A stretch of DNA of 64,000 nt from Skeletonema tropicum (Eukaryota; Bacillariophyta; Thalassiosirophyceae; Thalassiosirales; Thalassiosiraceae): contig CM074131.1 of NCBI GenBank assembly GCA_037178625.1, positions 4,464,001 to 4,528,000 on the forward strand. Reading direction: 5' to 3'. Numbering within the stretch: position 1 is the first letter of the stretch; each line of letters begins with the position of its first letter. Positions 13,225-60,051 of this stretch are shown piece after piece. The notes below the pieces were generated by a model that was not told the origin of the DNA, ran no database searches, and saw nothing but the letters and a program-made list of their open reading frames with translations. Position numbers and translations under genes: made by a program.

Positions 13225-14698
13225 ATGAGCGAGAGCGGCAATAATGGCAGACAATCATCTCAATCGTTGTTGAGAGATTTGGATAGTTATTGTTCATCGA
13301 CTTGCTTTCAGAGGAAGGCCTGCGCGAATTGATTGAGCGACATGATCCAACATCAAATAATGATATCGGCAATTTCAATTATGAATTCTTCTTTCGGGCA
13401 TATCGCAATGAAAGGGTCAACGAAGGAATAATTCGATGTCTCATCGAATATTTTCCTGATGCTGCTAGGGCTACTGATGAACGTGGGTGCACACCGCTCC
13501 ATTACGCATGCAACAAAAGTATGACACGGGGGATAATTGAACTCCTCATCGATGCAGCTCCCAACTCTGTTGGCAGTGTCACCAATTTCGGTGCGATGCC
13601 TCTCCACTGCTTATATGCTAACAAACGCATGAACGAAACAGCCTCGATGCAATTATTGAAGTTGTTTATCGAGAAGTGCCCTGCAGCAGCCCGGCATGCT
13701 GATAGTTCAGGCAGTCTTCCAATTCACTATGCGGCTGTGTATAGATGTCCTGAGTTTGCAGCCTATTAATTGAAGCGCATCCTGGATCTGAGCGAATAGC
13801 CGATTCCGCGGGCTGGCTCCCTCTCCACTTTGCATGTGAAAATAACCATGTCGGCAAAGTAGAATATTTGTACAACCTTTACCCCGATGCCATCAATCAC
13901 GCTGACACAAAGGGATATTATCCGATTCACTACGCCATTATGGGCATGCGAGGAAACCCAGAAACTGCCATTGATACCGTGCAATACCTGTTGGATTGCG
14001 ATCCCAATGTGAAATTTCACAAGCGGCGAGGAAAATCTCTTTTTCATTATGCTTGCAAGTGGAATTATAATGATTCAAATATCGATGCTGCTTTTGAAAT
14101 TATCAAGGCAATTTACGATGCACACCCAGAAGCTATTGAAGACAATAGACTTGCGTCCAATATCCACCGCTATCACCAACAAGTGCAAGCATTCATCAAC
14201 ATTGAGACAGTCTACGCTCGCCAAGCCAAAGATCACCGTCTAATGATGACACCTGATGCCAATGGACAACTCCCGCTGCACAAAGCGCTTCAGGGCAACG
14301 TCAGGCTTGGCTCCATCAAGTTGTTGGTAGAAGGCAATCCTTCTGCGATAAGAAGTGTCGATGATAGCGGTGCATTTCCCCTGCATATCGCATGTCAACA
14401 TCATAAATCCACTAGCGTCGTGAAGTACCTGATTAGCCTTGCAGATATCACACTTGATGCAATTGATAGGCAAGGGAATACCGCCCTTCATTATGCTTGC
14501 CGAGGTGCTAGACGTGGAACCATTGCGATGTTGCTGACAACATATGATGCTGTAACTGTATCGAAACGAAATGCGCAAAAGAAGCTTCCAATCGATTTGC
14601 TTTGGGAGAGCGATGCAGTGGAAGAGAGGGAGAGCGTCGAATACATCGAGAGTGTCTTCAGGCTCTTGAAGGCTCATCCTGAGACGATTATGAACTGA
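13225..14698 (+). pseudogene. Ankyrin-repeat gene copy 1, two 1-bp deletions
   Basis: It aligns along its length with the intact copy at 16346-17824. The matching ATG is at 13225 (Met-Ser-Glu-Ser-Gly-Asn). Relative to copy 2, one base is missing near 13299, just before the Leu-Leu-Ser-Glu-Glu-Gly-Leu-Arg block, and one near 13757 in the Pro-Glu-Phe region, so the reading frame changes twice. Ankyrin units (Pro-Leu-His-Tyr-Ala-Cys, Leu-Pro-Ile-His-Tyr-Ala and so on) are otherwise well kept, and the stop at 14696-14698 matches that of copy 2. The damage is recent. Confidence 0.85.
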
Positions 14699-15093: not shown

Positions 15094-16345
15094 ATATTTG
15101 GGTGAATGTTTAATCACCGATAGCAAGCAGGGACTCGAGGCCAACCAGTTTGGGTTCAACTGCCTTCGTGGTCTCATTCCAGGATAATCTTCAGTTTGCA
15201 AGTGCAAGGGAACAGAAGACTTACATGAACATCTTCAGGTTATTTGGTACGCACGTTAGAAAGGAGAGACAAACGAAACGGCTCAAACTGGCGATGTCGG
15301 TCATGACAGCCAGATGAAAGCGAGAGATAGAGAGAGAGAGAGAGAGAGAGTTGAAGAAGTAGCGAGATAGGCAACTGTATACTAATCGACATATATTCAT
15401 GAACCGTGGAGGGGCGCTGCAAGATCATGTGTTATTTATTACGAAATTTAACCGGCACTCAAACTCTCCATCCGGCACTTGATTCTTGATCATCAAGATT
15501 GAACTGTAAAGTCAAAGGCGGCTCCGCCGTCGGTTCTTGCTCGTCATCGCCTCTGCCCTTCTCTGCACTAAATGGATACAATGAGGAGTTCTGATAACAT
15601 ACCGAAACACAACAGAGAGACTGCGGGTGTGGTGCCGTACTTTAAAATTTCTGTTATATTATCAATGCTGTGTGGGTGAAATCTATGACGAAGATACAAA
15701 AACCGCACCCTGCCCAGTTGCTGACTGAAACATATCTTGGATGTTTTCGAGAGCCCGTTTGGCCAAAGGGTTGTGAGTGGAATGCTTCAAAACTTTGTAA
15801 CAACCAATGTGAAAACCCCACACATACAATGAGTGCATGGTTGGATGAACAACCAAGAAAAATGGCAGGGCAACAAATCACTGACCAAAATGAAGAGTGA
15901 AGACATCCTCTTGCCTACCTGTCCATCACCACAAGATTTGTCCTTCTACTTCGAACAACTTACGAGAACTTGTATGTTGATGTTCTCCAGAAGTTCTAGA
16001 AATCGCTCTCGTGTCTACTACAACTTCATGAGAGGCCGACCGAGCGAGTGGCTTATCTGCAGTTGATGAGAAATTATTGAATAGACCACGCACGGGAACC
16101 AGAGAAAAAGTATGAGTGCCTCCGTCGTGAAAGGATAAGTACTTAAATATTTGTTGATTGAATCGCAAGCCCCGCTGTGACAAGAAATGACTATGAAACG
16201 GGATTCAGAAAATGAGAAGAGCAAGGAGCAGGAAAAAGAGCAAAGAGCTCTGCTCTACCTATTGTACTCCCAAAAGAATCAGACAGAAGACAACTTGCCG
16301 CTTGCCACGGCTTGCCAATGTTGCTTGTTAGAAAGAATTTCAATG
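15094..16345. other. Spacer between the ankyrin copies
   Basis: Contains the 3' flank of copy 1, a GA microsatellite (about 15321-15350) and a dispersed motif at 15636-15656. Upstream in-frame codons reach an ATG at 16187, but homology with the other paralogues starts at 16343/16346. No other gene seen. Confidence 0.45.
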
Positions 16346-17824
16346 ATGAGCGAGAACGGCAATATTCGCAGACAATCAGCTGAAATGCTGTTGAGAGAAT
16401 TGGATAATTATTGTTCATCAGACTTGCTTTCCGAAGAAGGCCTGCGCGAATTGATTGAGCGACGTGAATTGACATCCATCAATAATATTGGCAATTTCAA
16501 TTATCAATTCTTCTTCGATGCATGCCGCAATGAAAGGGTGGACGAGGGAATAATACGATGCCTTCTCGAATATTTTCCTCATGCTGCCAGGGCTACTGAG
16601 GGTGGGTGGTCGCCGCTCCATTACGCATGCAACAAAAGTGCGACACGGGGGATAATTGAACTCCTCATCGATGCTGCTCCCGACTCTGTTCGCAGTGTAA
16701 GCAATAAGGGTTGGATGCCTCTCCATTATTTATGTGATAACAAACGCATGAACGAAAAAGACTCGATACAATCATTGAAGTTGCTTATCGAGAAGCACCC
16801 TGAAGCAGTCCGGCATGCTGATAATTACGGCACTCTTCCAATTCACGTAGCGAGTGCGATGAAATCTCCTGACTTTTGCCGTGTGTTGATCGAAGCATAT
16901 CCTGGATCTGAGCGAATAGCCAATGCCGCAGGCTGGCTCCCTCTCCATCGTGCATGCGCAAACATCACAGTTGCCAAAGTAGAATTTTTGCACACACTCT
17001 ACCCCGATGCCATCAATCACGCATCAACGCAGGGAGATTATCCAATCCACTGCGCAATTCTAGGCCTGCGCATGCTAGGAAACCCAGAGAGTGCCATTGA
17101 TACCGTGCAATACCTGTTGGATTGCGATCCCAATGTGAAATTTCAGAAGTGTGAAGGACAGTCTCTTTTCCATTATGCTTGCCGTTTGAATTATAATAAA
17201 TCAAACATCGACGTTGCTCTTGAAATCATCAAAGCAATTTACGATGCACACCCAGAAGCGATCGAACACAATAGAATCGCGTCCAATATCCAACACTATC
17301 ACCAACAAGTGCAAGCATTTATCAACTCACAGTTAGTCTATGCTCGTCAAGCTAAAGACCTCCGCCTAATGACAACACCTAATGGCAATGGACGACTCCC
17401 GCTGCACAAAGCACTTCAGAACAATGCTAGGCTTGGATCAATCAAGTTGTTGGTGAAAGGCAATCCTTCTGCGAGTAGATATATCGATGATAGCGGTGCA
17501 TTACCCCTGCATATTGCGTGTCAGCATCACAAATCTGCTAATGTTGTTAAGTACTTGGTTGGCCTTGCAGATATCACACTTAATGCAATTGATAGGCAAG
17601 GGAGCACCGCCCTTCATTATGCTTGCCGTGGTGCTAGATTTGGAACCATTGCGATGTTGCTGAAAACATATGATGCTGTTTCAGTATCGAAACGAAATGT
17701 TCACAAAAAGCTTCCCATCGACCTTCTTTGGGAGAGCGATGCGGTGGAGGAGAGGGAGAGCGTCGAATACATCGAGAGTGTCTTCAGGCTCCTGAAGGCT
17801 TATCCCGAGACGATTATGAACTGA
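16346..17824 (+). CDS. Ankyrin-repeat protein (intact tandem copy)
   Basis: 492 residues from the second Met of a Met-Met pair; this start matches the starts of the other two paralogues in the window, although the frame is open to an ATG at 16187. The conserved N-terminal block Leu-Ser-Glu-Glu-Gly-Leu-Arg-Glu-Leu-Ile-Glu-Arg is followed by about ten degenerate ankyrin units spaced 33-40 residues apart, each with a Pro-Leu-His or Pro-Ile-His helix start (for example around residues 77, 112, 150, 185, 219). No signal peptide, membrane segment or catalytic domain is visible. It is a lineage-specific scaffold-type family; the ligand is unknown. Confidence 0.8.
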   Translation: MSENGNIRRQSAEMLLRELDNYCSSDLLSEEGLRELIERRELTSINNIGNFNYQFFFDACRNERVDEGIIRCLLEYFPHAARATEGGWSPLHYACNKSATRGIIELLIDAAPDSVRSVSNKGWMPLHYLCDNKRMNEKDSIQSLKLLIEKHPEAVRHADNYGTLPIHVASAMKSPDFCRVLIEAYPGSERIANAAGWLPLHRACANITVAKVEFLHTLYPDAINHASTQGDYPIHCAILGLRMLGNPESAIDTVQYLLDCDPNVKFQKCEGQSLFHYACRLNYNKSNIDVALEIIKAIYDAHPEAIEHNRIASNIQHYHQQVQAFINSQLVYARQAKDLRLMTTPNGNGRLPLHKALQNNARLGSIKLLVKGNPSASRYIDDSGALPLHIACQHHKSANVVKYLVGLADITLNAIDRQGSTALHYACRGARFGTIAMLLKTYDAVSVSKRNVHKKLPIDLLWESDAVEERESVEYIESVFRLLKAYPETIMN

Positions 17825-27341: not shown

Positions 27342-28907
27342 TCATACGTCACCCCACTTTCTCTTCTTGTAATTATCACTTGGACAAGCAGCCAGAGTGG
27401 ATTGCACCTGCACTTTTGTGCCCATGCTCATTATCATCTCGGGGTATGACCTCATAAGCCGATACACGCTCTCTGTATACTTAATACTCTTCCGATCAGA
27501 CACCAAATCGCTTTCCCGGAGTAGATCAATAGGGAGGTTCTTGTGAGCGTTTTGTTTCGATACGGATACTGCATCATATTTCTCCAGTAACATCGCTATG
27601 ATCTCATGCCTGGCGCTGCGACAAGCAAGATGGAGGGCTGTGTTCCCACCCCGATCCACATCGTCAAGAGTAGATGTATCAAGATTAACCAAGTACTTAA
27701 CAACGCTAGCAGAATTATGCTGACATGCTATGTGCAAGGGTAGCGCGCCGCTGTTGTCGGAAAATTGTACAGCATTGGGATTGCCTTTTACCAACAACTT
27801 GATTGAACCAAGTCTCACATTATTTTGAAGCGCTGCATGCAATGAGAGTTGACCATTGTCATCAGGTGTTGTCATGAGACTTCGATCGTTGGCTTGACGA
27901 GCATAGGTTGTCTCGCTGTTGATAAATGCTTGTACTTGTTCATGATAACGCCACGTGCCTCGCACAATTCTTTCATCTTCAATAGCTTCTGGGTGTGCGT
28001 CATACAATGCCTTGATAATTTCTAGTGCAGCATTGATAGTGTTTGGATCGTTATAATACTGTTCCCCTGTCAGAAGACATGCAAAATGAAGCAGAGATAA
28101 TCCTTCAACCTTTTGCAGCTTAACATTGGGATCACAATCCAGCAGGTATTGCACAATTTCCACAGCACCAGTTAAATGGTTTGTCTTGCTGGTACGAGTC
28201 GTTGCGAAGTGAATTGGATACAATCCATCTGTTGCATGATTGATGGCATCGGGGTAGAGTTTGTGCAAAAATTCGACTGTGGCAACTGTGTTTTGTGCGC
28301 ATGCATGATGAAGAAGCAGCTCGCCCTCAGCACTGGCTCTTCGCTCAGATCCAGTATAAGCTTCGATCAGTACGCGACAAAATTCAGGAGATCTATGTCC
28401 AGCCGCATAGTGAATTGGAAGATCACCTTCGTCATCGGCATGGCGGACTGCTTCGGGGCACTTCTCGATCAGCGGCTTCAAAATTTGGATTGCTGTTGCT
28501 TCATTCATGCTGCCAAAGCATAAATAATAGATAGGCACCCAACCGCGATTGGTTACACTGCGAACAGAGGCGGGAGCTGCATCGATGAGGAGCTGTGTTA
28601 TGTTGAGCGTCATGTTTTTGTTGCCGCATGCAAAATGGAGCGGTGTCATTCCATCCTCATCAGTAACACCGGCAGCATCAGGAAAATATTCGAGAAGCAG
28701 TCGAATTATTTCCTCGTTGACTCGTTTATTGCTGCATGCAGTGAGGAAAAATCGGTAATCCTCCACACAGTTATTAGTGGGCGTCAATCCATGTCGCTCA
28801 ATTATGTCACGTAGGCCTTCCTCAGAAAGCGAGTCGGATTGGCAAAAGTCAAACAACTCTTCTGCGAGCACTTCTGCGATATCATTATTATCGTCGCTAT
28901 CGCTCAT
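27342..28907 (-). CDS. Ankyrin-repeat protein, third paralogue
   Basis: 521 residues from ATG 28907 (Met-Ser-Asp-Ser-Asp-Asp); the frame is open to an ATG at 28988, but the shorter start matches the paralogues at 13225 and 16346. The same Leu-Ser-Glu-Glu-Gly-Leu-Arg block and array of ankyrin units is present, with the conserved Thr-Thr-Pro-Asp-Asp-Asn-Gly-Gln-Leu block around residue 338 and a Lys-Asn-Leu-Pro-Ile-Asp-Leu-Leu near the C-terminus. It adds a 26-residue C-terminal extension beyond the point where the other two stop. Uninterrupted, single exon, unknown partner. Confidence 0.8.
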   Translation of the reverse strand: MSDSDDNNDIAEVLAEELFDFCQSDSLSEEGLRDIIERHGLTPTNNCVEDYRFFLTACSNKRVNEEIIRLLLEYFPDAAGVTDEDGMTPLHFACGNKNMTLNITQLLIDAAPASVRSVTNRGWVPIYYLCFGSMNEATAIQILKPLIEKCPEAVRHADDEGDLPIHYAAGHRSPEFCRVLIEAYTGSERRASAEGELLLHHACAQNTVATVEFLHKLYPDAINHATDGLYPIHFATTRTSKTNHLTGAVEIVQYLLDCDPNVKLQKVEGLSLLHFACLLTGEQYYNDPNTINAALEIIKALYDAHPEAIEDERIVRGTWRYHEQVQAFINSETTYARQANDRSLMTTPDDNGQLSLHAALQNNVRLGSIKLLVKGNPNAVQFSDNSGALPLHIACQHNSASVVKYLVNLDTSTLDDVDRGGNTALHLACRSARHEIIAMLLEKYDAVSVSKQNAHKNLPIDLLRESDLVSDRKSIKYTESVYRLMRSYPEMIMSMGTKVQVQSTLAACPSDNYKKRKWGDV

Positions 28908-29652
28908 GATAAATAGAGAAGTAAGTATTGAAGAGACACAGAGAGAGATCGATAGAAGAGAATCAAAAGGGCGATTGTACGAGTGCATACACGAGCAAGG
29001 TGAGAGGTAGATAAAGGCAAATCCAACAATGAGATCAACATAGTAAGTAGGAAATAGCGGGGGGGAGCTGGCGTTTTAAACGCCAGTAGACTCACCGTCG
29101 CACTTTGAAAGATTTGCCGAGCACAAGATAAATTCGCATAACGCTAGTAAACATCTCAATCATTCCGACCTCTGTCCGATGTCAACCAAAACTCAACCGA
29201 CCGATCAATCCAATGATTGTAATGAACTCTCCATCCAAAACGGTAGGGACACCACCCCTATTGCAGAGTTGGGGGCGGTCAGCTCATCGAGCACTGGACG
29301 TCCCGAACTGGTCGAGTGTTGAAGCCGTCGGCGAAGCAGCAAGCTGCGAATAATGCGTCAGCCGCATCACGGGCAATGATAGTCTGGCTGATAGGATTGC
29401 ACGTTGTGACTTCAGTTCTAACAGCTCGATCAATGAGGTATTCCCTTGCCATATGCCATAAAGGAAAGGGGACGCATGATATCCCTCCCGAGGTGCTTTC
29501 TTTGAGGAGAACTTCTACAGGGAAGGCGAATGCAGTCCGAGAATGGCGCCTGCTCACAGACAGGCAGCAATTGTCCACAAAATTAACCGTATTTTGCAAT
29601 CTCAGCAGCGCGAGGAACAAGCTGTGCAGCGAGGGCTCTTGCAGAGATTGAC

Positions 29653-33346: not shown

Positions 33347-34639
33347 CACACCGATATCTCTCACAAAATTTTTATTGAGCAACTTACGGAGGCTTTTATC
33401 ATCTTTAATTTTTTTGCTGTACTTTCCATCCTTGGTCATTAGAGCCGCAACCAATCCACAAACGTGGGGAGTAGCCATGGAAGTTCCTGTAGAAAAGAGA
33501 GGGGATCATTGATGATTGTGAGATAATGTGGCAGGTGTTGCTGTTGCAATAAGGATTGATTGCTTTTACTCTATCTATCCTTATCACCAGACATTCAAAA
33601 TGCATACAAACAGTATCTAACATAAGATTTCTAGAAAGGCTTACCACTCATTTGTTGAAGTCCTCCGCCTGGCTTAAAGCTGTGGACGTCCTCCCCGATA
33701 CCTGAATAGTCGACTTGAGCATTGCTGTTAGAAAACCATGCAACTGGAAGACCCTCGTACTTGCCTACTGCTGCGATGCTGAGGACCTCTTTCCTCATCG
33801 CAGGCCAGCTATTCATGGGAGCAAAAAAGGGCATCCAAAGGAAAAGTGTCAGAAATGAGAATGTGAAGAAATGAAGGACAAATAAATCATGTTGCTTGAA
33901 TCTTGTCAACTTCTTACCTCCGTTCGTTTGTGAGAATATTGTCATCTCCTTCGTTTCCAGCTGCGACAATCATATGAACTTTGTTCTTTTTAGCATATTT
34001 GATAGCTTTTCCGATTTCCCAGCTTGCAACTGGACCTCCAAGAGACATGTTGATGACATCACATCCATCGTCCACAGCCTGGTAGATTGATCTTGCAATA
34101 CTGGTATCTATCCCATTCCCTTCCGCACCAAACACACGAAAGTCGTAGAGCTCTGCCTCAGGTGCCATCATGTGGATAGTGCCTGCTACATGAGTACCAT
34201 GGTCATCCTCAGATAGAGGAGTGCCATAGCGATGCCAAATTTGCTCCTTCACTTGGCCATGAAAGCCGGTATGATCAGCGTCGACTCCACTATCAATAAC
34301 AGCCACTTTTACACCTTTGCCGGTCAGGCCAGCGGCGCGAAGCTTATTGGCGCCAGTCATTACGACACCAAGAGGGAGGTTGTCAAAGAAAGCCTCGTCA
34401 TCGACGTCCACCTGCTCAGCGCTCGCCGGCTTCCTGATGACTTTGGGTCTCACAATCGCGTCTTCCTTGTTGTCAACAGCCATGATGAGAGGCTGCGCTC
34501 CAATGCTGACGCCTGTTGGAGTGGCAACGCTGAGAGCAGATGAGCGAGAGCGATGAGTCCTCGCTAGGCCAGGTCCGAAGGCGAGGACAGTGGGTGCTGC
34601 TACTGCAGCAAGAGAGAGGGCGATGGGAGAGATCTTCAT
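33242..34639 (-). CDS. Subtilisin-like serine protease, plastid-type presequence
   Basis: Exons 34639-33918, 33808-33645 and 33486-33242 (GTAAGA...TAG; GTAAGC...CAG) join in frame to 376 residues. The ORF also runs to a TTG at 34663, but the first ATG is 34639. The presequence is a hydrophobic signal (Met-Lys-Ile-Ser...Val-Leu-Ala) followed by Phe-Gly-Pro and a basic Ser/Arg stretch, matching the diatom A-F cleavage motif for plastid import. The catalytic triad of family S8 is complete: Val-Ile-Asp-Ser-Gly (Asp), Asp-His-Gly-Thr-His-Val-Ala-Gly (His), the oxyanion Asn in Ala-Ala-Gly-Asn, and Gly-Thr-Ser-Met-Ala-Thr-Pro-His (Ser). The catalytic Gly|Thr-Ser is split exactly by intron 2. Probably a plastid stroma or thylakoid protease; targeting is inferred. 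Confidence 0.88.
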
Positions 34640-41540: not shown

Positions 41541-42089
41541 ATGCCATCGCAGACTGATAGATATTCAGTCGGTCAAATGACAACAAGACGACTGGTAATA
41601 TTTGATGCACAGAATGCAGCATCATTTGAACCATGGTCACAACAATTTCATGCCCTGAATGATAAGTCGAGAGGATGGAAGGGTATCATGCTAGGAAAGG
41701 TGGATGTACCAACCAAGGATGAAGTTGATAAGGCGATGGCTACAGCTGAGAAAGATAGAACGGTCGATGACATCGACACAATAGCAAGGCACAAGGCCAA
41801 CATTGATTGCTATGACAACATGATTCTCTCAATGGACGTGAGTACAACTGCGGGAAGACTGGCGTATCATTTGGTCAGGACATGCAAGAAGCCAGAGTAT
41901 CCAGATGGCAACTGCTACATGGCATACGAGAAGCTTGTATCGTACACGGCAACGTTTTCAGGCTGTGGGGTGCAAGTCAGGTCACATGAGGTCACGAAAA
42001 GCGCAAGTCAGAACCACGGAGGAATGGTACATTGGCAGTACATTGGCGATGGTCTCCACGCAATATTTGTCGCCAAGAGCGTGATATGA
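41541..42089 (+). pseudogene. Truncated Copia-type Gag fragment
   Basis: 182 codons from ATG 41541. After a short leader the protein has the Copia Gag pattern: Phe-Glu-Pro-Trp-Ser-Gln-Gln-Phe...Gly-Trp-Lys-Gly-Ile-Met-Leu-Gly, a long acidic/basic helix, Asn-x-x-Ala/Cys-Tyr-Asp-Asn-Met-Ile-Leu-Ser, and Gly-Asn-Cys-Tyr-Met-Ala-Tyr-Glu-Lys-Leu. The zinc knuckle, protease, integrase and reverse transcriptase are all absent, and the homology ends near 41960. It is a decayed fragment of a CoDi-like retrotransposon, about 900 bp upstream of the CMPK2-like gene. Confidence 0.65.
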
Positions 42090-42993
42090 CAGATCACGGT
42101 ACATTGTAAAAGCTGTCACATGTGACGGTCGCAAAGACAATATGATAGTGATAGCACATCGGCAACTTGCTTTGTATCGGACGCTGCACTGCTATCCACT
42201 GCAAGCCAAAACGTAAATATATTCATAACAGCATGCTGAATCTGTCTCTGAAGTGGTGTGGATGGATTCGCCGTCTGGAAGCGTGAGGAGCATGGAGCGC
42301 ACATCATGTGATGAACGACATAATGATCGTCGCTCGACATCAATGAGAACATACACGGCGAACGACGTTGCCGTCTCTACCACCGAGAAAAGGCACAAGC
42401 AATGAAACATATTCATTTATTCATCAATGGATGCGTCGAGACTGTTGTGTCTTGTGCATCCAACACACTTGTTAGATGTTACGGAAGCGGGCACATCTCA
42501 TAGCAAAATGCATCCACACGCAACAAGCAGCATCTTCTATGAACACCAACACCAACAATATATGAGAATCGTATATTTATGCTATTTGGAGTCTTGGTGG
42601 CGACGGGGAAGGTTCAAGAGCGTACTATATCGATGCATAATATTTGAGCGACGAAAGCAATACACATACTATCCAACTCTCCTTGACGGGCAGCAGTGTA
42701 CAACTCATTGAAGATTCAACAGTAGCAAACAGAGTCTCCATTCGCGGCAATAGATTAGAGGATCATACAAGCCAATTGCAGGCGATGCTGATAGAAATGT
42801 AACAAAGTTCAAGCCTTACTACAATAGTTTGAGTCTCTGTTGGATGCGAAATACTACGCAAACTCCTCTTTTATCGACTCTTGCTTTGGGTTTAAATCTA
42901 GTCGTAGACTCTAGTTGAATTAGATGATACTTCAGTCACCTATTCGAGAAGAGTGGTGACGATTCATTGCATTCTGTGATAGAATTGTTGCAG
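42090..42993. promoter_or_regulatory. Upstream region of the CMPK2-like gene
   Basis: 900 bp with no supported gene; must contain the promoter of the kinase gene. No TATA box or recognised stress element could be assigned. Confidence 0.35.
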
Positions 42994-45456
42994 ATGAGCT
43001 GCGACCACGAACTTTCCTCCTCTTTTTCTCTCCTCTTTCCTCTTTCTCGCCCCCAACTCAGGCGAAGCCCACAGCCTGAGAAAAATGCCACGTACACGTA
43101 CACGCCGTTGCAAATGAAATCCATCATGACGGAACCACCAGAGACGAATTACAATGACGAAAGATGCTATAACGATTTGGCGTCATCATTATCCATGCCA
43201 GGACTGTTCAGCGACTTCGCTCTGCCAGCAAGATTGTTAAGATTGGCGAGGGAGAGAAATGATTTTCCTGCTGACGTCGTATTTGGTTGCGCTGCTGATG
43301 GCAATACTGTGATCGATACCTTCTACGAACTCTTGGACAAGGTGGAAGCTGCGCTGACTGATGCAACGTCTCAACAGCGACTGAATATTATTCAACAGGA
43401 GAAATTCATAATTGAAGTTGAAGGTCTCGATGGCAGTGGAAAGACCACTTTAGTCAGAAGGCTGCAGGAGACTCTACCGCATGCAATTGCGACAAAAACT
43501 CCATCAGCATCGTTGCATGATATTCGGCCGCTATGGGACAAGCGCGGTGGGATACTAGCACGTGCATTTTATATGGTCTCGAATTATGTGTTGGAATATG
43601 AGATTGCAAATTTCTACAAAGAGGATATCATTATTATCGATCGATGGTTTGCGTCGACATGTGGCTATACTGTGGCTCGCCCACCAAGCGAAAACAGCTA
43701 TTTTGGTAATGGTAACGAGTCAGATCAGCGATCGCAACCCGTCATTGCGGATATGCCCGATAAGATATTTGATTGGCCAAAAGATCTTCGGCTCAGACCA
43801 AACATTTTGCTTGTGTTGCAAATAGATCAATCTGAGAGGCAAAAACGAGTGGAGATTCGCGCAACGAGTACTGGTGAAGGAGGAGCATCACGATTTAATC
43901 CATGGGACGAGAGATTAGCTAAAGATACTGCATTGGGAGAACGAATTTTGGTGGCGCTGCATCGAATTTCAGGTCCGGTTGAAACGTTTTCTATCAATGC
44001 CAATTGTTCCATTGAGGACGTAACAAAGCAGGCTTTGGATAGTATCAAACTACCCCTGGAACGGCACATCAGTCCTCAAATTCACTTTGCATCCAACCCC
44101 CTGCAATGGTGGATATATATGGCTCAGCAGCTTGATTGCTGCGATAAATATGGGAAACGAGCGCATCATGCTCTATGGAATCTACAAGTAGCATACAACA
44201 ACGAAAATAGTGGACCAATTCCAGTACTCAAAACGGTTGGATTGGATAGGATTGAAAACGCATTTGTTTATTACTGGACTGCAAGTACTGCATTTCCATC
44301 CAATGAGAGTCTTTGGGGATCCATAATTTGGGAGGGGGGGACATATCCCACTGAATTCCAGTGGCGAGCAGAAGGATATCTCAGACGAGTTACAGAAGAA
44401 GAGTGTACTTTGCGACGATATCATGCTCCTCGATCACTGGTTGCACATGTACATGCTTGCACCAAACTCTCTAATGATGGGCACGGAAGGCGTCGCACCT
44501 CTCGACCTGACTCATATGATGATGCTGTACGTGATGCTCGACAAAATGTCGATACTGTCACTAACGATTGTGTCTGCATGGTACGATTTGTCCCTATTCG
44601 TATAGAAGTATTGCGTGGAGGGCCAAGCACCCGTTTTCATGGATATCCTCAACGCTTTGAGTGGTTAAGAAGAAGTGGTGATGTTGGTGCTTGGAGCATG
44701 AGGTCTGTATTGCCATTCGGGCCAACGCCCATAATGACTGCGATGGGATTTCGTGACTTGACAGTTTGCATCATTGGCACGCACACGTCAGGCAAATCTA
44801 CCATCGGAAGGAAATTGGCCACACTCCTGGGCTGTCAGTTTGACGAGGAGCTTGGTGAAATTGAACGAGATTCAGAATCTCTCGTAGAAGGGGGGCATCT
44901 TCACGGAGATGGAAGCTCTGCTACAACATCTTCTGGGAAAGAAGACTGGGATGACTTTCTTCTCACGAAAGAGTGCGAGCGTGATACACAGTTTCAAGAT
45001 TCCAACAGCTCAATCAGAGTTGTGGAGACATGGCACGTAGGCAATGCAGCTTGGTATAATTTACGCCATCAGCAGAACAGTACTGACTTGGATAGATACA
45101 AAATCGCAATCGCAAAGCATCAAGAGTCTTCATTGGTTATTGCGATACAGTTGATGCTGTCATCACCCTCCACGATGGTGCGGCGACGTGAAGCGGACGC
45201 CGATAACAGCAAACGTTTGCCAATGCAAGACGACGAACAAGAATGCAACCAGCTATTTATTGCCCTGCAAGATAATAATTTGAAGGAGACTCTATTAGAC
45301 CCACTCGGAATACCACTTTTTCAGATCGACAATAATGCAGATGGAGGCGAGGTAATGGAAAAGGTATTGTGTGCTTGTCTCTCATTTGTACAAACACACC
45401 TACATAATCAAGTTCTGGTACCACCATCGTCAGCGACTGTGGACAACAATGGTTAA
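42994..45456 (+). CDS. CMPK2-like nucleotide kinase with second P-loop domain
   Basis: The frame is open from a TTG at 42967; the first ATG (42994) gives 820 residues, and a Met at 43114 is an alternative start. Domain 1 (about residues 137-355) is a thymidylate-kinase-fold NMP kinase: Walker A Gly-Leu-Asp-Gly-Ser-Gly-Lys-Thr-Thr (144-152), Arg-Ala-Phe-Tyr...Asn-Tyr-Val-Leu, and Ile-Ile-Asp-Arg-Trp-Phe-Ala-Ser-Thr...Tyr, then Asp-Trp-Pro-Lys-Asp-Leu. These details match mitochondrial UMP-CMP kinase 2 rather than ordinary TMP kinase. A middle region (~360-585) is unassigned. Domain 2 has another Walker A, Gly-Thr-His-Thr-Ser-Gly-Lys-Ser-Thr (595-603), and a Val-Val-Glu-Thr-Trp-His block, like NadR/AAA_28-type kinases. 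It probably phosphorylates CMP/UMP to supply CTP. Its stop is 82 bp from the stop of a convergent viperin gene. Intact, no intron. Confidence 0.88.
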   Translation: MSCDHELSSSFSLLFPLSRPQLRRSPQPEKNATYTYTPLQMKSIMTEPPETNYNDERCYNDLASSLSMPGLFSDFALPARLLRLARERNDFPADVVFGCAADGNTVIDTFYELLDKVEAALTDATSQQRLNIIQQEKFIIEVEGLDGSGKTTLVRRLQETLPHAIATKTPSASLHDIRPLWDKRGGILARAFYMVSNYVLEYEIANFYKEDIIIIDRWFASTCGYTVARPPSENSYFGNGNESDQRSQPVIADMPDKIFDWPKDLRLRPNILLVLQIDQSERQKRVEIRATSTGEGGASRFNPWDERLAKDTALGERILVALHRISGPVETFSINANCSIEDVTKQALDSIKLPLERHISPQIHFASNPLQWWIYMAQQLDCCDKYGKRAHHALWNLQVAYNNENSGPIPVLKTVGLDRIENAFVYYWTASTAFPSNESLWGSIIWEGGTYPTEFQWRAEGYLRRVTEEECTLRRYHAPRSLVAHVHACTKLSNDGHGRRRTSRPDSYDDAVRDARQNVDTVTNDCVCMVRFVPIRIEVLRGGPSTRFHGYPQRFEWLRRSGDVGAWSMRSVLPFGPTPIMTAMGFRDLTVCIIGTHTSGKSTIGRKLATLLGCQFDEELGEIERDSESLVEGGHLHGDGSSATTSSGKEDWDDFLLTKECERDTQFQDSNSSIRVVETWHVGNAAWYNLRHQQNSTDLDRYKIAIAKHQESSLVIAIQLMLSSPSTMVRRREADADNSKRLPMQDDEQECNQLFIALQDNNLKETLLDPLGIPLFQIDNNADGGEVMEKVLCACLSFVQTHLHNQVLVPPSSATVDNNG

Positions 45457-45538
45457 TTGTAATGCGTGGCGCAGTTACTTTAGATTATTATGATGTTTGT
45501 TTTGATGTTCGTAATGATCTAAGCAAAAACGTCATTTA

Positions 45539-46546
45539 CTACTTCGACTTATCAACATTACCTCCATCCCGGGTCCGAGTCCACTCAAAAATACCTCCCC
45601 GCTTCTGGAACATTTCCTCATCAAATCCTGCCTGTGCAAGAGCTCGGTCAACACCAACTTCCAATATGGACTGACTAGGAATCTTGCCATTATCACTACA
45701 GTCCAAAAATCGCAACTCCTCATCGAGTAGGAGATAACTATTTTGCATCACAGTGTTTGGCTCCGGGATAAGTGCATTCTGTTCCGAATGACGCTGAATA
45801 AAGGCATCAAACTGATCCCGCGTCACCTGCAACTCGCGAGCATCATTGATGTCATTTCCTTCCCCCGAATTCTCCCCCTTCAATATCAAGCACTGAAACG
45901 CTTTCCACCTATACGGATCCAAACTTGTCACGTACTTATTCATATCTTCTTCGTGATTGAGGCTACAAACAACCGTGTTCATTTTGAACAAGATTCCATG
46001 CTTGCTACACATCTCCCTCACTTTCAAGACCCGAGTGACATGTTGATTCTTGGTAGTATCCCCCGTCCCCCGTCCAATCAATGCATTCGTCTCAGGATCA
46101 AAGCTGTCCACACTGACACCTAATATATCCACATATCGTCCATACCGCTCCATCCAGTCCGGTCGAATCAACGATCCATTGGATATAATGGACACAGCCA
46201 TACCACATTCCTCCTGAGCATACTGACAAAGCTCTCCCAATAATGTCGGATTGAGAAACGGTTCTCCTCCCGCAAAGTTGATCTTCTCCGTGCCGGAATG
46301 CTGAAGCAGTTGTAATCCGAGCTTCGCCCTGCCGGTGGATAATTTGTGGGTGTTGGTTTGGGTGTGAAAGCAAAATTTGCAGTTGTAGTTGCATTCACGA
46401 GAGATGAAGTAATTTACAGATTTGACTCGGCTTGCTACCGAGGAGGGATTATTGTAGGCTGATGTCAGCGTCAGCGTGGACGGTGGCATCGTCGCCATTA
46501 CAATCATGGCCGTGGCCCCAATTAGCTGCTGGAGGTGGCCAATCAT
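45539..46546 (-). CDS. RSAD2-like: Viperin (RSAD2) homologue, ddhCTP synthase
   Basis: The open frame begins at a TTG (46672); the first ATG is 46546, giving 335 residues, and a TATA-like box 145-152 bp upstream supports it. Residues ~1-20 are hydrophobic, in the place of viperin's membrane-binding helix. The radical SAM motif Cys-x3-Cys-x2-Cys is Cys-Asn-Tyr-Asn-Cys-Lys-Phe-Cys (52-59), followed by Phe-His-Thr, Gly-Gly-Glu-Pro (93-96), Ser-Asn-Gly-Ser-Leu-Ile-Arg, Ser-Val-Asp-Ser-Phe-Asp, Gly-Arg-Gly, a Trp-Lys-Ala-Phe-Gln-Cys-Leu block and the Lys-Arg-Gly-Gly-x-Phe-x-Trp C-terminus. All are viperin hallmarks, including the C-terminal motif required for activity, so it should convert CTP to 3'-deoxy-3',4'-didehydro-CTP. 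Convergent with the CMPK2-like gene. No frameshift or missing key residue. Identity is very sure; antiviral role in diatoms is inferred. Confidence 0.95.
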   Translation of the reverse strand: MIGHLQQLIGATAMIVMATMPPSTLTLTSAYNNPSSVASRVKSVNYFISRECNYNCKFCFHTQTNTHKLSTGRAKLGLQLLQHSGTEKINFAGGEPFLNPTLLGELCQYAQEECGMAVSIISNGSLIRPDWMERYGRYVDILGVSVDSFDPETNALIGRGTGDTTKNQHVTRVLKVREMCSKHGILFKMNTVVCSLNHEEDMNKYVTSLDPYRWKAFQCLILKGENSGEGNDINDARELQVTRDQFDAFIQRHSEQNALIPEPNTVMQNSYLLLDEELRFLDCSDNGKIPSQSILEVGVDRALAQAGFDEEMFQKRGGIFEWTRTRDGGNVDKSK

Positions 46547-46826: not shown

Positions 46827-47205
46827 CGGTTAAGGTTTTGGGTATTCGGCAGTCAAAATCCGAGATTCGGCAGTCATTCGGCAGTGAGGTGTAAAAAGGC
46901 CCATTTGATAGTCATTCCCAGTTGGAGACGGTCCCATTTGATAGCCATTCCCAGTTGGAAATGGTGAGCCGAAAAATATTTTCTTCTCTAGAGATCACAA
47001 AATCATCCTTTTTATTGCAGTTTTGGATAAGTAGATCTAGTAGAGTATTTAGAGTAGTATGTAAAAATTTTTAATTATGAAAAAATACCCAATATTGACC
47101 AAGATATAAGGAAAACAGCTGAGTGCCGACGAGTGCCCGGAGTGCCGAATATGGCCACCGAAAAACGGCAAATCCGGCAGTGCCGAATACCCAAAACCTT
47201 AGCCG
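46827..47205. mobile_element. 379-bp MITE-like TIR element
   Basis: CGGTTAAGGTTTTGGGTATT at the left and its near-perfect inverse (one mismatch) at the right end, 47180-47205. Several ATTCGGCAGT units sit inside the left end. No clear target duplication. It lies a few hundred bp upstream of the viperin gene. Confidence 0.7.
46900..46965. repeat. 33-bp direct repeat, two copies
   Basis: CCCATTTGATAGTCATTCCC and CCCATTTGATAGCCATTCCC start two adjacent 33-bp units inside the MITE-like element. Confidence 0.7.
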
Positions 47206-54759: not shown

Positions 54760-56412
54760 ATGTCGCAAAATGAATTAGCTTCGATTTACTTGGCCTACAA
54801 CACTCTCACCGAGGACAAACGGCCAAAAGAATCTCAGGTAACTCGTGGATACATCGAGGATAAAGACAAAGTCGTCTTTCCCATCTTTCCAGTTGCCAAG
54901 ATTGCCAATGGTCGGAAATGGACTATCGATGGCGGATCAACTAATCATGCCAAGACTACGGTAACGTACTATTCCCTTCCACATAATGTTGGACAACACA
55001 CCTACATGGTACTCAAACTCATCGAATATGAAAGTCTAATCTTCGAGCTTGGTTGGGACGACCACGAGAAGAAGCTCATGACTCAACTCATCTTCAATCA
55101 ACAAAAAGCGTCCGAGCTAGAAGCCGACATCGCAAACAAATTCAACGGTATCACCGGTGATCCTCTCGCTAAGAAGGACATCGACGAATTGAAAAAGACA
55201 CTATCGCAGCATAAAAAGCAAATCACCCATCATGTGAACTCTCTGAACGATAATGCAGATCGTGCAGGAGGTATGCTTGGAAAGCTCATGGGTCATTTCG
55301 ATAAGAAATTCGCTGTCATCATGGACAACTACTTCAATCAGGGTACGCCGTACCAAGTGACGAAGTGGAGGGCAGTCAACCATGCATTTTGCAAGGACGC
55401 CATGGACTCTTCCAAAATAATGATCCCTCTGATGTCTTACACAGGGACGGTCTTCGATGACAAAGACGAAACATCAGACTACTTGATGTGTCATAAAGCG
55501 ATGCTCTGCACTCAAACAGAAACAGGGCCTCGTTTGAAAACTCTTAAGGATATTCTCAAGTGCGCTAATTTATTGTTAGTCCAGCAACATGGTTACGGCC
55601 TCGCGGAAGCAACCAGAAGCTACTTGGAATCCAACATTAAATTCCATCGTGCATTCACATGCAAGCAGTGGGTAGGGATGATCACAGCAATCAATCAATA
55701 TCTACGTCTCCTTACCACCTACAAAGATGATGAACAGTACGCGGACAACCCTAGTATTCCACGTGCCAACGTTCCCTACAACGAAGTGGAGCTGTGCAAG
55801 ATTGTCTTGGCCAGCATGCCCAGAGAGGTTAGGGATTCTCTTCGAGTGACGTCCCCAACTCGTCTACTTGAAACAGAGCTGGAGCCTTTGGTCGCTCGCA
55901 TTGACGCCATCTTGGTTCAGCAGAAGACCCAACGCGCTTCAAATGAAAAGGATAAGTCTACCAAGAACGGAGCTTCCAACCCCAACCCTAGAAACCAGAA
56001 GAAGAATGGTGGAGGTGGCGGTGGAGGTGGTGGTGGTGGCAATCCAAGTACTAAACCTACGCCTGAAAATCCCAAAGACGGTGGGTGTGGCAACTGTCAG
56101 AAGAATGGAGTCAAAGCTTGGTTTACCCATCCTACGGTTCAATGCCGCAACTACGAAGTCAATGGTCAAAAGAAGAGGCGTGATGGTGAAAACCGTCAAC
56201 TACGCGATCACGAAAAAGAAGAAGGATCTGTGAAGGACCTCATCAAAAGCGAAATTGCAGCCGCACTCAGAGACATGCGTTCTGGTGGTGGGGGTCGTGA
56301 TCATTACAGGCATGACCGACGTGAGCGCTCTCGTTCTCGCTCTAGGTCTCGCTCTCGTAGTCCTGAATACCATCGACGCAGCCGTAGCTATCGCCGTCGA
56401 GATGACTATTGA
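54760..56412 (+). CDS. gag: Gypsy Gag with zinc finger and RS-rich tail
   Basis: 550 residues from ATG 54760. A helical capsid-like region is followed by a Gly-rich linker (polyGly near residues 415-425), an unusual zinc finger Cys-x2-Cys-x10-His-x4-Cys (about 446-465), and a C-terminal Arg/Ser-dipeptide tail (about 520-540) like those of SR splicing factors. The TGA at 56410-56412 is in the same frame as pol, which starts at ATG 56434. Confidence 0.88.
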   Translation: MSQNELASIYLAYNTLTEDKRPKESQVTRGYIEDKDKVVFPIFPVAKIANGRKWTIDGGSTNHAKTTVTYYSLPHNVGQHTYMVLKLIEYESLIFELGWDDHEKKLMTQLIFNQQKASELEADIANKFNGITGDPLAKKDIDELKKTLSQHKKQITHHVNSLNDNADRAGGMLGKLMGHFDKKFAVIMDNYFNQGTPYQVTKWRAVNHAFCKDAMDSSKIMIPLMSYTGTVFDDKDETSDYLMCHKAMLCTQTETGPRLKTLKDILKCANLLLVQQHGYGLAEATRSYLESNIKFHRAFTCKQWVGMITAINQYLRLLTTYKDDEQYADNPSIPRANVPYNEVELCKIVLASMPREVRDSLRVTSPTRLLETELEPLVARIDAILVQQKTQRASNEKDKSTKNGASNPNPRNQKKNGGGGGGGGGGGNPSTKPTPENPKDGGCGNCQKNGVKAWFTHPTVQCRNYEVNGQKKRRDGENRQLRDHEKEEGSVKDLIKSEIAAALRDMRSGGGGRDHYRHDRRERSRSRSRSRSRSPEYHRRSRSYRRRDDY

Positions 56413-56433
56413 ATCATTGGGTCCGACACTCGA

Positions 56434-59400
56434 ATGGAAAATAGTAACTTAAAAGTAAATAATGAATCTGATTCTTATGAACATTCAGTTAAACGAAGGA
56501 AACCTAATACTATCGATTTCGATGTGTATAACCTTGACCATTCGCCGATTAAAGGTGTCATACCCGATTGGAGCGGTGTAAAAGACATGCACGCATCGCT
56601 TCGTCAAAAAGTAATCAGGGGAAATGGACTTAAGACTGTTGTTGTCGCAGCGTCCCTGACCAAGAAGGGAAACCGTAACTCACGCCCCTTGGTTTTATTA
56701 CTTGACTCCGGTGCAGATGATGACATCATCTTTCTGCCCGATGAAGAAGTAAAGGCTTTTGACCCTATACCTCTAGCTCATCCAAATGTGTGGACTACGT
56801 CCAATGGCCAGTTCAACACAGGTGAAGTCGCAGAACTATCTTTCTTGCTTCCGGAGTATTCTCAAAGTAAGATTATGTCTTGTACTGCTGACATCAGACG
56901 CATCCACAACAGGAGGAGCGTTCAATACGACGCCATTATTGGTGTTAAAACCCTTCATGCTTGGGGAGTTACTATGCATTTCAAAGAGAAAGTCCTTGAA
57001 ATTGATGGCATCTCCCGTCCTATGAAAAACAAGGACGAATTCAAAGATGAAAACGTCTTGATGAACATCTATAATGAAGCCCTAGAGCCTCAGTCAACCA
57101 AAGAGGAGACTGACAGAGCCGTCAAGATTTTGGATGCCAAGTATGAAGCCGCCGATCTAGAAAAGATCGTCGATGAAAATTGCTCTCATCTCTCCCGAAT
57201 GCAGAGACTTCAACTACTCAACTTACTCAAGAAACATGAGAAGATGTTTAGCGGATCTCTCGGTGAATGGAAGGGTGAGGAAGTCCATTTTGAGCTTAAG
57301 CCAGATGTGAAACCGTTCCGTGGTAGACCGTTTGATGTCCCACAGATACACAAAGCAACAATTATGAAAGAACTTCAACGCTTAATTGATATAGGAGTTC
57401 TGGAGCAGGTGCAACAAGCAGACTGGCTCAGTCCATCTTTTATTATTCCTAAGTCAGACGGCACAGTCCGCTTCCTCTCCGACTTCCGCCAGCTTAACAA
57501 AGCGCTAGTGCGACGCCCCTTCCCGCTTCCTAAGGTATCGGGTATGTTGCAACAGATGGAAGGCTTTACTTTTGCCTCAGCGATTGATCTCAATATGGGA
57601 TATTACCATTTGAAGCTTGATCTCGAGACGATGAAGATTTGCGCCATTGTATTCCCTTGGGGAATTTACAGGTACAAAAGACTTCCAATGGGAGTTGCTT
57701 GTAGCCCGGACATCTTCCAAAGTAAAATGAGTTCACTCTTTGCTGAGTTGGACTACGTGCAGGCTTACATTGATGATTTGCTCTGCCTATCCAAAGGAAC
57801 CTTTGAAGACCACCTGGAGAAACTCGACGTGGTATTACAAAAGTTAAGCGACGCTGGTCTGCAAGTCAACGCAGCCAAAAGTAAATTCGCAGCCGTAGAG
57901 ATTGATTACCTTGGGTATCATCTCACCAAACAAGGAATTGCACCACAACATTCCAAAGTCGCCGCTATCCTTGCTCTCAAACCACCTCGCAACGTGAAAG
58001 ATCTTCGACGTTGCCTCGGTATTATTCAGTATTACCGTGACCTGTGGGTGTCAAGAACACAGCTCCTCGCTCCACTCACTGATCTAGTTGGAGAATGTGG
58101 AACCACTAAACGCTCTACCAAAAAGAAGCCGCCGTGGCGGTGGGAGCAGGTTCATCAGGATGCTTTTGATGAGATCAAGAAGGTAATCGCCTGAGATGTT
58201 ATCCTGGCCTACCCGAACTTCGGTGAAGAGTTCACTATCTTTACTGATGCTTCAACTCGCCAGCTTGGGGGAGTGATTACGCAAAATAACCGTCCCATTG
58301 CCTTTTTCAGCCGGAAGTTAACTGCCGCGCAAATGAAGTACACTGTGACGGAACTTGAATTGCTTTCTATCGTCGAACTCTTGAAAGAATTCAAAGGTAT
58401 GCTGCTTGGACAGAAGCTGGTGATTTATACAGATCATCAGAATCTCGTTCGAGATAGCTTAGGCAGCACCTCTGACAGAGTGCAGAGATGGAATCTACTC
58501 CTCAATGAGTATGGAGCCGACATTAGGTACATCAAGGGTGTTGATAATACCGTTGCTGATGCCATTAGTCGATTAGATTATTGCCCAAAAATCAACCCTC
58601 ATCCAGAAGACGAACTCGACAGCAAAGGGAACTTCAGGTCAGAATATTCTCACCGCAAGTGGAATAAGCTGGTCTCTCTCTTCTCTCATTATCAAAACGA
58701 TGATGAGTGTGTTCTGGATAGAGAAGATGTGATAGAGCCAAAGGATTGCATGTCACATGTGTTTGCAAATTCAGCAGCCGATGACGAGGAAATTTACCCA
58801 GTCACCGTCAAGGAGATAGCAGATGCCCAACGGGAAGATCCAAAGATGAAGCACATTTTCGAACGGCCTGGTGCCGACAGTCGTAATCAGAAGATGATCA
58901 TAGACGACACTGTTGTCTTGGTTCGAAAGGACAGACCTTCGGCTCGTCCGAAGCTCATCATCCCTGAGAAGCTGCAATCTAAAGTTCTTATGTGGTATCA
59001 CCACTACCTGCAACATCCTGGTACTGACCGTATGGAAGGTACTATCGGCGCCGTCATGTATTGGCGTGGCATGAGTGCACAAATCCGTAGATTGTGTAAA
59101 TATTGTCCCAGGTGTCAGAAATCTAAGGCACGCAAGCGTAAGTACGGTCAACTTCCTCCTAAGGATGCGATCGTTGTTCCATGGCAGACGCTCCATTGCG
59201 ATTTAATTGGTCCAACAACAATTAAATCAAAGGATGGAACTGAAATGGATTTCATGTGTTTAACCATGATTGACGCTGCTACTGGATGGTTCGAAATAGT
59301 CGAACTCCCTAATAGGATGATCGAGAAGAAATGTCCTCGGACAGGAAAAACTGTCGAAGTAGAAATCATTGATAAAACTTCCGCTACAGTTTCCCACCTC

Positions 59401-60051
59401 TTGAATAAGTGCTGGTTAAGTCGTTATCCGCGCCCGAAGTATTTGGTGTGTGATAATGGTTCTGAATTCGAACTGCATCTGAAGGATCTGTGTGAACAGT
59501 ATCAGATTGGACGTAAGCCGACTACCAGTAAGAATCCGCAAGCTAATGCGATTTTAGAACGAGTTCACGGAGTCTTTAACGACATGCTCCGCACCTCGGG
59601 CCTCGACGACGATGATACCGTCGATGGCCACCGAATTGACCAATTTATCACAAATGCTGCATGGGCAATTCGATCTACTTACCACACCGTGCTCAAGGCT
59701 ACTCCTGGTGAAGCAATTTTTGGACGTGATATGTTATTTGACATTCCGTTCGTCGCTGACTGGAGTGAGATAGGTCGCCGCCGACAAGAGCTCGTGGACA
59801 GGAACAACGCCAGAGAAAACAAAAGGCGTCTCCCATATGACTATGTTCCAGGGAGTAAGTGCTTAATCATCAGTGAGATCAATGGTGAAAAGCAGCGCAA
59901 AGCTTTAGACAAGAATGAGGGACCGTATGTGGTCACAAATGTCTTTACTAATGGTACTGTCCGTATTCAACGTGGTTCCGTCAATGAACGAATCAATATC
60001 CGACGACTTACCCCCTTCTTTGAGGCAGAAGAAGCCAACGATGCAAGTTAA
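56434..60051 (+). CDS. pol: Gypsy Pol: protease, RT, RNase H, integrase; one in-frame TGA
   Basis: Same frame as gag. The aspartic protease has Leu-Asp-Ser-Gly-Ala (about 56703-56717). Reverse transcriptase shows Leu-Ser-Asp-Phe-Arg-Gln-Leu-Asn and Tyr-Ile-Asp-Asp-Leu (about 57766-57780). RNase H shows Phe-Thr-Asp-Ala-Ser and Tyr-Thr-Asp-His-Gln. Integrase has a His-x3-His...Cys-x2-Cys finger (about 58997-59120) and a D,D-x-E core: His-Cys-Asp-Leu-Ile-Gly, Cys-Asp-Asn-Gly-Ser-Glu-Phe, and Ala-Ile-Leu-Glu-Arg. The only interruption is TGA at 58192-58194, between RT and RNase H, with clear homology on both sides. It may be a single C-to-T change or a recoded stop. The protein ends at TAA 60049-60051 without an evident chromodomain. 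Confidence 0.9.

Follow-up and report, generated by a model that had tools for sequence, protein, structure and literature searches.

A Viperin Gene Tail to Tail with a CMPK2-Related Kinase Gene in the Diatom Skeletonema tropicum

Introduction

Could a diatom make its own chain-ending antiviral nucleotide? The question is raised by a stretch of Skeletonema tropicum DNA (contig C5, positions 4464001-4528000 of a 78.4-Mb assembly; 64,000 nucleotides, hereafter the window) in which a viperin gene lies beside a gene for a CMPK2-related kinase. Much of the carbon fixed in the ocean is fixed by diatoms, which fall victim to both RNA and DNA viruses; their antiviral enzymes are, to our knowledge, poorly known. 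Animal viperin makes ddhCTP, a 3'-deoxy-3',4'-didehydro (ddh) form of cytidine triphosphate (CTP), and viperins are described as antiviral (PMC11249213, PMC10732462).

The Gene Pair and Its Viperin

The viperin and kinase pair is real, as confirmed by adjacency, motifs and family placement. Both open reading frames (ORFs) run uninterrupted from ATG to stop, and they stand tail to tail with 82 bp from stop to stop, just as the initial annotation of this DNA had them.

45539-46546, minus strand: viperin gene, 335 amino acids, no interruption
46370-46393, minus strand: viperin radical SAM motif CxxxCxxC (CNYNCKFC)
46259-46270, minus strand: viperin motif GGEP
45698-45742, minus strand: viperin motif NSYLLLDEELRFLDC
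45581-45604, minus strand: viperin motif KRGGIFEW
45457-45538, no strand: convergent intergenic stretch, 82 bp between both stop codons
42994-45456, plus strand: kinase ORF as listed, 820 amino acids

The host had been read as a diatom, and the silicon transporters of the genome bear this out: PF03842 has nine matches, of which six, at 784-819 bits, span nearly the whole length, and it exceeds its cut-off in none of 14 control genomes, those named being prokaryotes.

The proposal of an intact viperin homologue also holds, since the open 335-amino-acid frame carries the CxxxCxxC motif, GGEP and the conserved C-terminal end. Radical_SAM (PF04055) scores 64.9 bits against a cut-off of 29.5 and the viperin profile NF038283 scores 258.5 bits against a cut-off of 180, while the best PADLOC matches are pVip profiles (248.2, 211.1 and 161.5 bits). 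Among solved structures, nine distinct sequences match at E 1e-50 or better. Scores reach 314 bits to 7n7h and 309 bits to 5vsl, with the alignment extending to the conserved C-terminal end, and identity is 51.8% to 7n7h, 50.4% to 5vsl and 49.5% to 9dfw. We take 5vsl to be mouse viperin and 7n7h and 9dfw to be eukaryotic viperins; 106 of the 276 gap-free columns are invariant across these three and the diatom protein. A quickly built tree of 80 rows, with these three as the only solved comparators, puts the diatom protein on one branch with them (Shimodaira-Hasegawa-like approximate likelihood-ratio test, SH-aLRT, 100), and 76 prokaryotic viperins fall outside; left out of the tree were one locus that gave no match and, as short or weak rows, L087, L089 and L090. 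These comparisons support a eukaryotic-type viperin, apart from the prokaryotic ones, and place the protein within the viperin clade, the point on which its identification had been staked. A viperin in a diatom is unsurprising, because viperin has been inferred in the last eukaryotic common ancestor in a study reporting 194 viperin-like proteins from 158 eukaryotic species (Culbertson and Levin, PMC10732462). No study of a diatom viperin was found in the literature searched, outside which most subscription journals lie, so that absence from print is not shown; PMC7168155 names viperin in its reference list only.

The Kinase and Its Relatives

The neighbouring gene had been described as an intact CMPK2-like kinase. 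Of that description, the open frame and the placement of one domain on the viperin-associated/CMPK2 side stand; the length and overall architecture do not, and probably neither does the listed start codon.

43381-44073, plus strand: kinase domain 1 (residues 130-360), thymidylate kinase (TMPK)-like, assigned to the viperin-associated/CMPK2 group from PADLOC matches and a tree
43423-43449, plus strand: P-loop 1, GLDGSGKTT
43639-43659, plus strand: kinase motif DRW
44056-44721, plus strand: middle region (residues ~355-576, ~220 residues), no family match over cut-off
44722-45453, plus strand: domain 2 (residues ~577-820), weakly shikimate-kinase/AAA_18-like, with the second P-loop
44776-44802, plus strand: P-loop 2, GTHTSGKST

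Thymidylate_kin (PF02223, cut-off 27) scores 30.7 bits when residues 130-360 are scanned alone and 25.3 bits, under the cut-off, over the whole kinase; the best PADLOC matches are PDC-M51B (51.5 bits) and VakA (36.8 bits). A genome scan for viperin loci found 84, of which 80 were kept. Domain 1 matches 13 of the 3429 ORFs of at least 80 amino acids from these 80 prokaryotic loci, and 12 of the 13 lie within 400 bp of viperin. With a profile of the kinase alignment A2, a kinase is found no more than 400 bp from viperin in 11 of 79 prokaryotic loci, co-directionally with viperin in all 11. Two further matches are more distant, one at 829 bp and the other, the housekeeping tmk L036, at 1103 bp. 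This L036, which as a gene is identical with L101, is itself one of the A2 rows, as is L070, which lacks a P-loop; the alignment was used unaltered for the profile. The invariant A2 columns D87, R88, P140, R156 and R160 are all present in domain 1, as is the P-loop.

In a kinase tree of 24 rows, domain 1 groups with nine viperin-associated kinases (support 99/98), nearest to L047, L055 and L070 (85/83). On the other side (99/98) lie the TMPK of the diatom itself and 13 prokaryotic rows that are tmk or tmk-like. Omitted were L017 (nearly identical to L018), L044 (whose frame is broken), and L114, L116 and L117, which match PF02223 weakly. The kinase shares the superfamily PF02223 with housekeeping TMPKs, but the tree sets domain 1 apart from the tmk rows, which rules out a housekeeping TMPK as had been anticipated; the diatom TMPK is a separate gene on contig C4, and since it is read in several pieces it probably carries introns. 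When a provisional human CMPK2 domain sequence was added, it fell on the same side as the diatom kinase (99/97) and the split was kept; its pairing with the diatom kinase received only 63/67. Domain 1 is thus supported, on its sequence, as lying within the TMPK family on the side of CMPK2 and the viperin-associated kinases, with a putative UMP/CMP (uridine and cytidine monophosphate) kinase activity; a mitochondrial location is a further trait of CMPK2.

CMPK2 has 449 amino acids, an N-terminal extension and its kinase domain at the C-terminus; the diatom ORF is nearly twice as long and departs from this architecture, with about 460 residues, including the second P-loop, following the kinase domain. 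AAA_18 scores 35.5 bits over the whole kinase in two stretches (cut-off 29.4) and 22.1 bits, under the cut-off, over the domain 2 region alone. For the middle region, no pyridoxamine-phosphate-oxidase match was found in Pfam, NCBIfam or solved structures, the lone Pfam row (PF19163) being another family and under its cut-off. Against a profile of 10 bacterial sequences of the pyridoxamine-phosphate-oxidase type, the region scored under several of 1000 shuffles; against a profile of 16 (14 prokaryotic and two diatom) it beat 1000 of 1000 shuffles, yet with E 0.18 and an hhalign p of 0.0035. With the latter profile it came behind a single strong match, second of 1066 sequences; once the two diatom sequences were removed it dropped to third, with a viperin-associated kinase also ahead of it. 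From inspection by eye, a split barrel of this type is suspected for the middle region, a non-significant likeness that is suggestive only. Single-sequence structure predictions failed, with a mean predicted local distance difference test (pLDDT) of 30.9 and 29.2.

Repeats at Both Flanks and a Second Copy of the Locus

Two repeats flank the pair, one of them reaching into the kinase ORF.

41947-43089, plus strand: dispersed ~1.14-kb repeat, its right end overlapping the start of the listed kinase ORF by ~32 codons
46830-47202, no strand: element resembling a miniature inverted-repeat transposable element (MITE), ~370 bp, bounded by ~21-bp terminal inverted repeats and situated ~290 bp upstream of where viperin starts

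The listed kinase ATG at 42994 falls within the final ~96 bp of the 1.14-kb repeat. At least 49 matches to this repeat were found, an undercount because the search (query 42000-43200) scored 39 of 110 candidates; the gene-pair locus, in its two copies, accounts for two, and 26 of the 47 others end no more than 2 bp from the position of 43089. Because this ATG sits inside a dispersed repeat, the next in-frame methionine codons are likelier starts, and the true one is probably Met41 (43114) or Met45 (43126), although the repeat-borne ATG may be in real use. The repeat is also arrayed on contig C19 (1537-1569 kb), with 28 units among the matches listed, mostly at 1142-bp spacing. The MITE-like element has 41 genome matches listed, including itself; the second copy of the locus lacks it.

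That second copy lies 191.7 kb away on the same contig (C5:4698702-4702254), near the contig end at 4720718. The two copies are 99.2% identical over 4489 bases, i.e., 0.8% diverged, and either a haplotype that was retained or a true duplication could account for the second; the published genome of this species, with 78.78 Mb and a heterozygosity of 0.73% (PMC11032307), is similar in size and in divergence. Between the copies, viperin shows six synonymous changes and one nonsynonymous change, and the kinase eight and 10, giving nonsynonymous-to-synonymous ratios (pN/pS) of 0.05 and 0.37, respectively, from few changes in each case. More of the contig recurs in the same way: between C5 ~4.41-4.53 Mb and 4.61-4.72 Mb, the window's 30-34 kb and 40.5-43.2 kb stretches and the gene pair return ~180-195 kb on, near the contig end, at 96-100% identity; what recurs is either one extensive duplication or a haplotype that was retained.

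Proposed Function

We consider it probable, with moderate confidence, that a eukaryotic viperin is paired here with a CMPK2-related kinase in a pathway directed against diatom viruses. The kinase would phosphorylate pyrimidine nucleotides, carrying UMP and CMP towards cytidine diphosphate (CDP) and CTP, and so feed CTP or uridine triphosphate (UTP) to viperin; viperin would convert CTP (or UTP) to its ddh-nucleotide, and this would act as an RNA chain terminator against the diatom's viruses. Activity, substrate, co-regulation and antiviral role are all predicted. By analogy, viperin activity has been described as depending on CMPK2, and a CMPK2-like kinase lies beside 15% of bacterial viperin genes (PMC11249213).

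Several findings weigh against this proposal. For viperin, the TIGR04278 'viperin' profile gives 334.5 bits, below its cut-off of 450; this profile is of the NCBIfam type 'exception', and we take it as narrower than the family and so not defining for viperin. For the kinase, domain 1 is very divergent, at 17-24% identity to the A2 rows, and its spacing from DR to the conserved P is 18-21 residues longer than in the other ten rows. Its end branch in the kinase tree is flagged as long (2.35), so its exact place there is unsure, and when the whole kinase was compared with solved structures (phmmer), TMPKs appeared only at E 0.024 or worse. The proposal does not account for the long extra part of the kinase, and six of the nine amino-acid differences between the kinase copies fall within domain 1. 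As to the pairing itself, the convergent order gives no shared promoter, and linkage among eukaryotes was examined in a single genome.

The adjacency could also be an accident or a recent, species-specific rearrangement of real genes with no functional pairing, which we think unlikely. The convergent orientation, found in neither the vertebrate nor the prokaryotic orders, the repeats on both sides (41947-43089 and 46830-47202) and the single eukaryotic genome examined would all suit it. Yet the neighbour is of the very kinase type found with viperins in vertebrates and, among prokaryotes, in 11 of 79 loci, and by a rough estimate a random neighbourhood would be of the order of two in ~10^4 genes, about one in thousands.

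Just as unlikely, in our estimation, is a pair that makes a ddh-nucleotide other than ddhCTP or serves a role outside defence, e.g., in metabolism associated with the plastid or the endoplasmic reticulum (ER). The first ~20 residues of viperin are hydrophobic, resembling a signal or anchor, and are followed by LTSAYNNPSS, which, read by eye, is compatible with a signal peptide. Eukaryotic viperins are described as restricted to CTP or UTP derivatives (PMC11249213). The C-terminal stretch that we regard as contributing to the substrate site differs from that of 5vsl; it is, however, of the same length as in 5vsl and lacks the two-residue gap of 9dgw. The descriptions of animal viperin as a ddhCTP maker and of viperins as antiviral (PMC11249213, PMC10732462) speak for the antiviral proposal instead.

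Origin of the Pairing

The vertebrate viperin/CMPK2 pair is head to head, whereas the diatom pair is tail to tail and its kinase continues at the C-terminus into a long part that carries a second P-loop. What the two have in common is a viperin and a CMPK2-type kinase adjacent on opposite strands, viperin and cmpk2 being described as neighbours in opposite orientation in vertebrates (PMC6414715). The prokaryotic pairs (PADLOC pVip, VakA and PDC-M51) resemble the diatom pair in their kinases, since two of these profiles are matched by domain 1, which also falls among such kinases in the tree, but the pairs lie on one strand in 11 of 11 cases, their kinase ORFs in the tree have ~160-220 codons against 820 in the diatom, and the diatom viperin sides with the three solved viperins instead of theirs. 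No paper treating CMPK2 together with a choanoflagellate was found in the literature searched. Shomar et al. reportedly found eukaryotic viperins genetically linked with nucleotide kinases. The principle of viperin-kinase linkage is thus already published, and the diatom case is a variant of it.

The initial annotation had held that such a neighbourhood, if conserved in a stramenopile, would mean either a very old linkage or a joint transfer, and neither finds support: the gene orders differ, and so do the nearest prokaryotic relatives of the two proteins. Acquisition of both genes from a bacterium in one horizontal transfer is highly improbable. Bacterial viperin-kinase pairs do exist, some paired bacteria (e.g., L014, L018, L019 and L031) have viperins in the diatom's half of the viperin tree, and both diatom ORFs lack introns. 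Lack of introns is ordinary, however, because Skeletonema tropicum genes average 1.74 exons (PMC11032307). Moreover, in the viperin tree the diatom protein falls with the three solved ones (SH-aLRT 100), while the genomes of L047, L055 and L070, whose kinases are nearest to domain 1 (85/83), have viperins in the other half, which argues against one joint transfer. One unbroken ancestral arrangement is opposed by an order that is convergent here, opposite-facing in vertebrates and co-directional in prokaryotes. Because the nearest prokaryotic relatives differ and the order is convergent, our comparison favours separate ancestry with later pairing over joint transfer. Patterns of both proteins were also scanned on viral contigs; no confirmed relative was found there, and a viral origin was rejected.

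A more specific version of the paired pathway can be offered only tentatively, and we regard it as doubtful. The kinase could be a composite nucleotide-supply enzyme (a CMPK2-type nucleoside monophosphate (NMP) kinase, a middle domain faintly akin to the flavin-binding pyridoxamine-phosphate oxidases and a second P-loop kinase) dedicated to the adjoining viperin, the pairing having formed within the diatom lineage, separately from that of vertebrates, as a third gene order, with a kinase promoter possibly derived from the mobile repeat.

Other Features of the Window

Elsewhere in the window, three ORFs at 54760-60051 resemble, by eye, a Ty3/gypsy-type gag-pol retroelement, the ORF at 54760-56409 giving no Pfam match. 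Three ankyrin-repeat-like ORFs (13940-14698, 16187-17824 and 27342-28988) appear by eye to form one family. At 33914-34639 lies a subtilase (PF00082, 83.1 bits), the N-terminal VLAF/GP of which presumably resembles a diatom plastid-targeting signal.

Significance

The surprise of this locus is limited by the spread of viperins across eukaryotes and by the viperin-kinase linkage already in print. What the linked viperin and kinase provide is two concrete candidate antiviral genes in a diatom, and their distinct gene order and kinase make-up raise the question of whether selection has repeatedly re-formed the partnership between viperin and a kinase.

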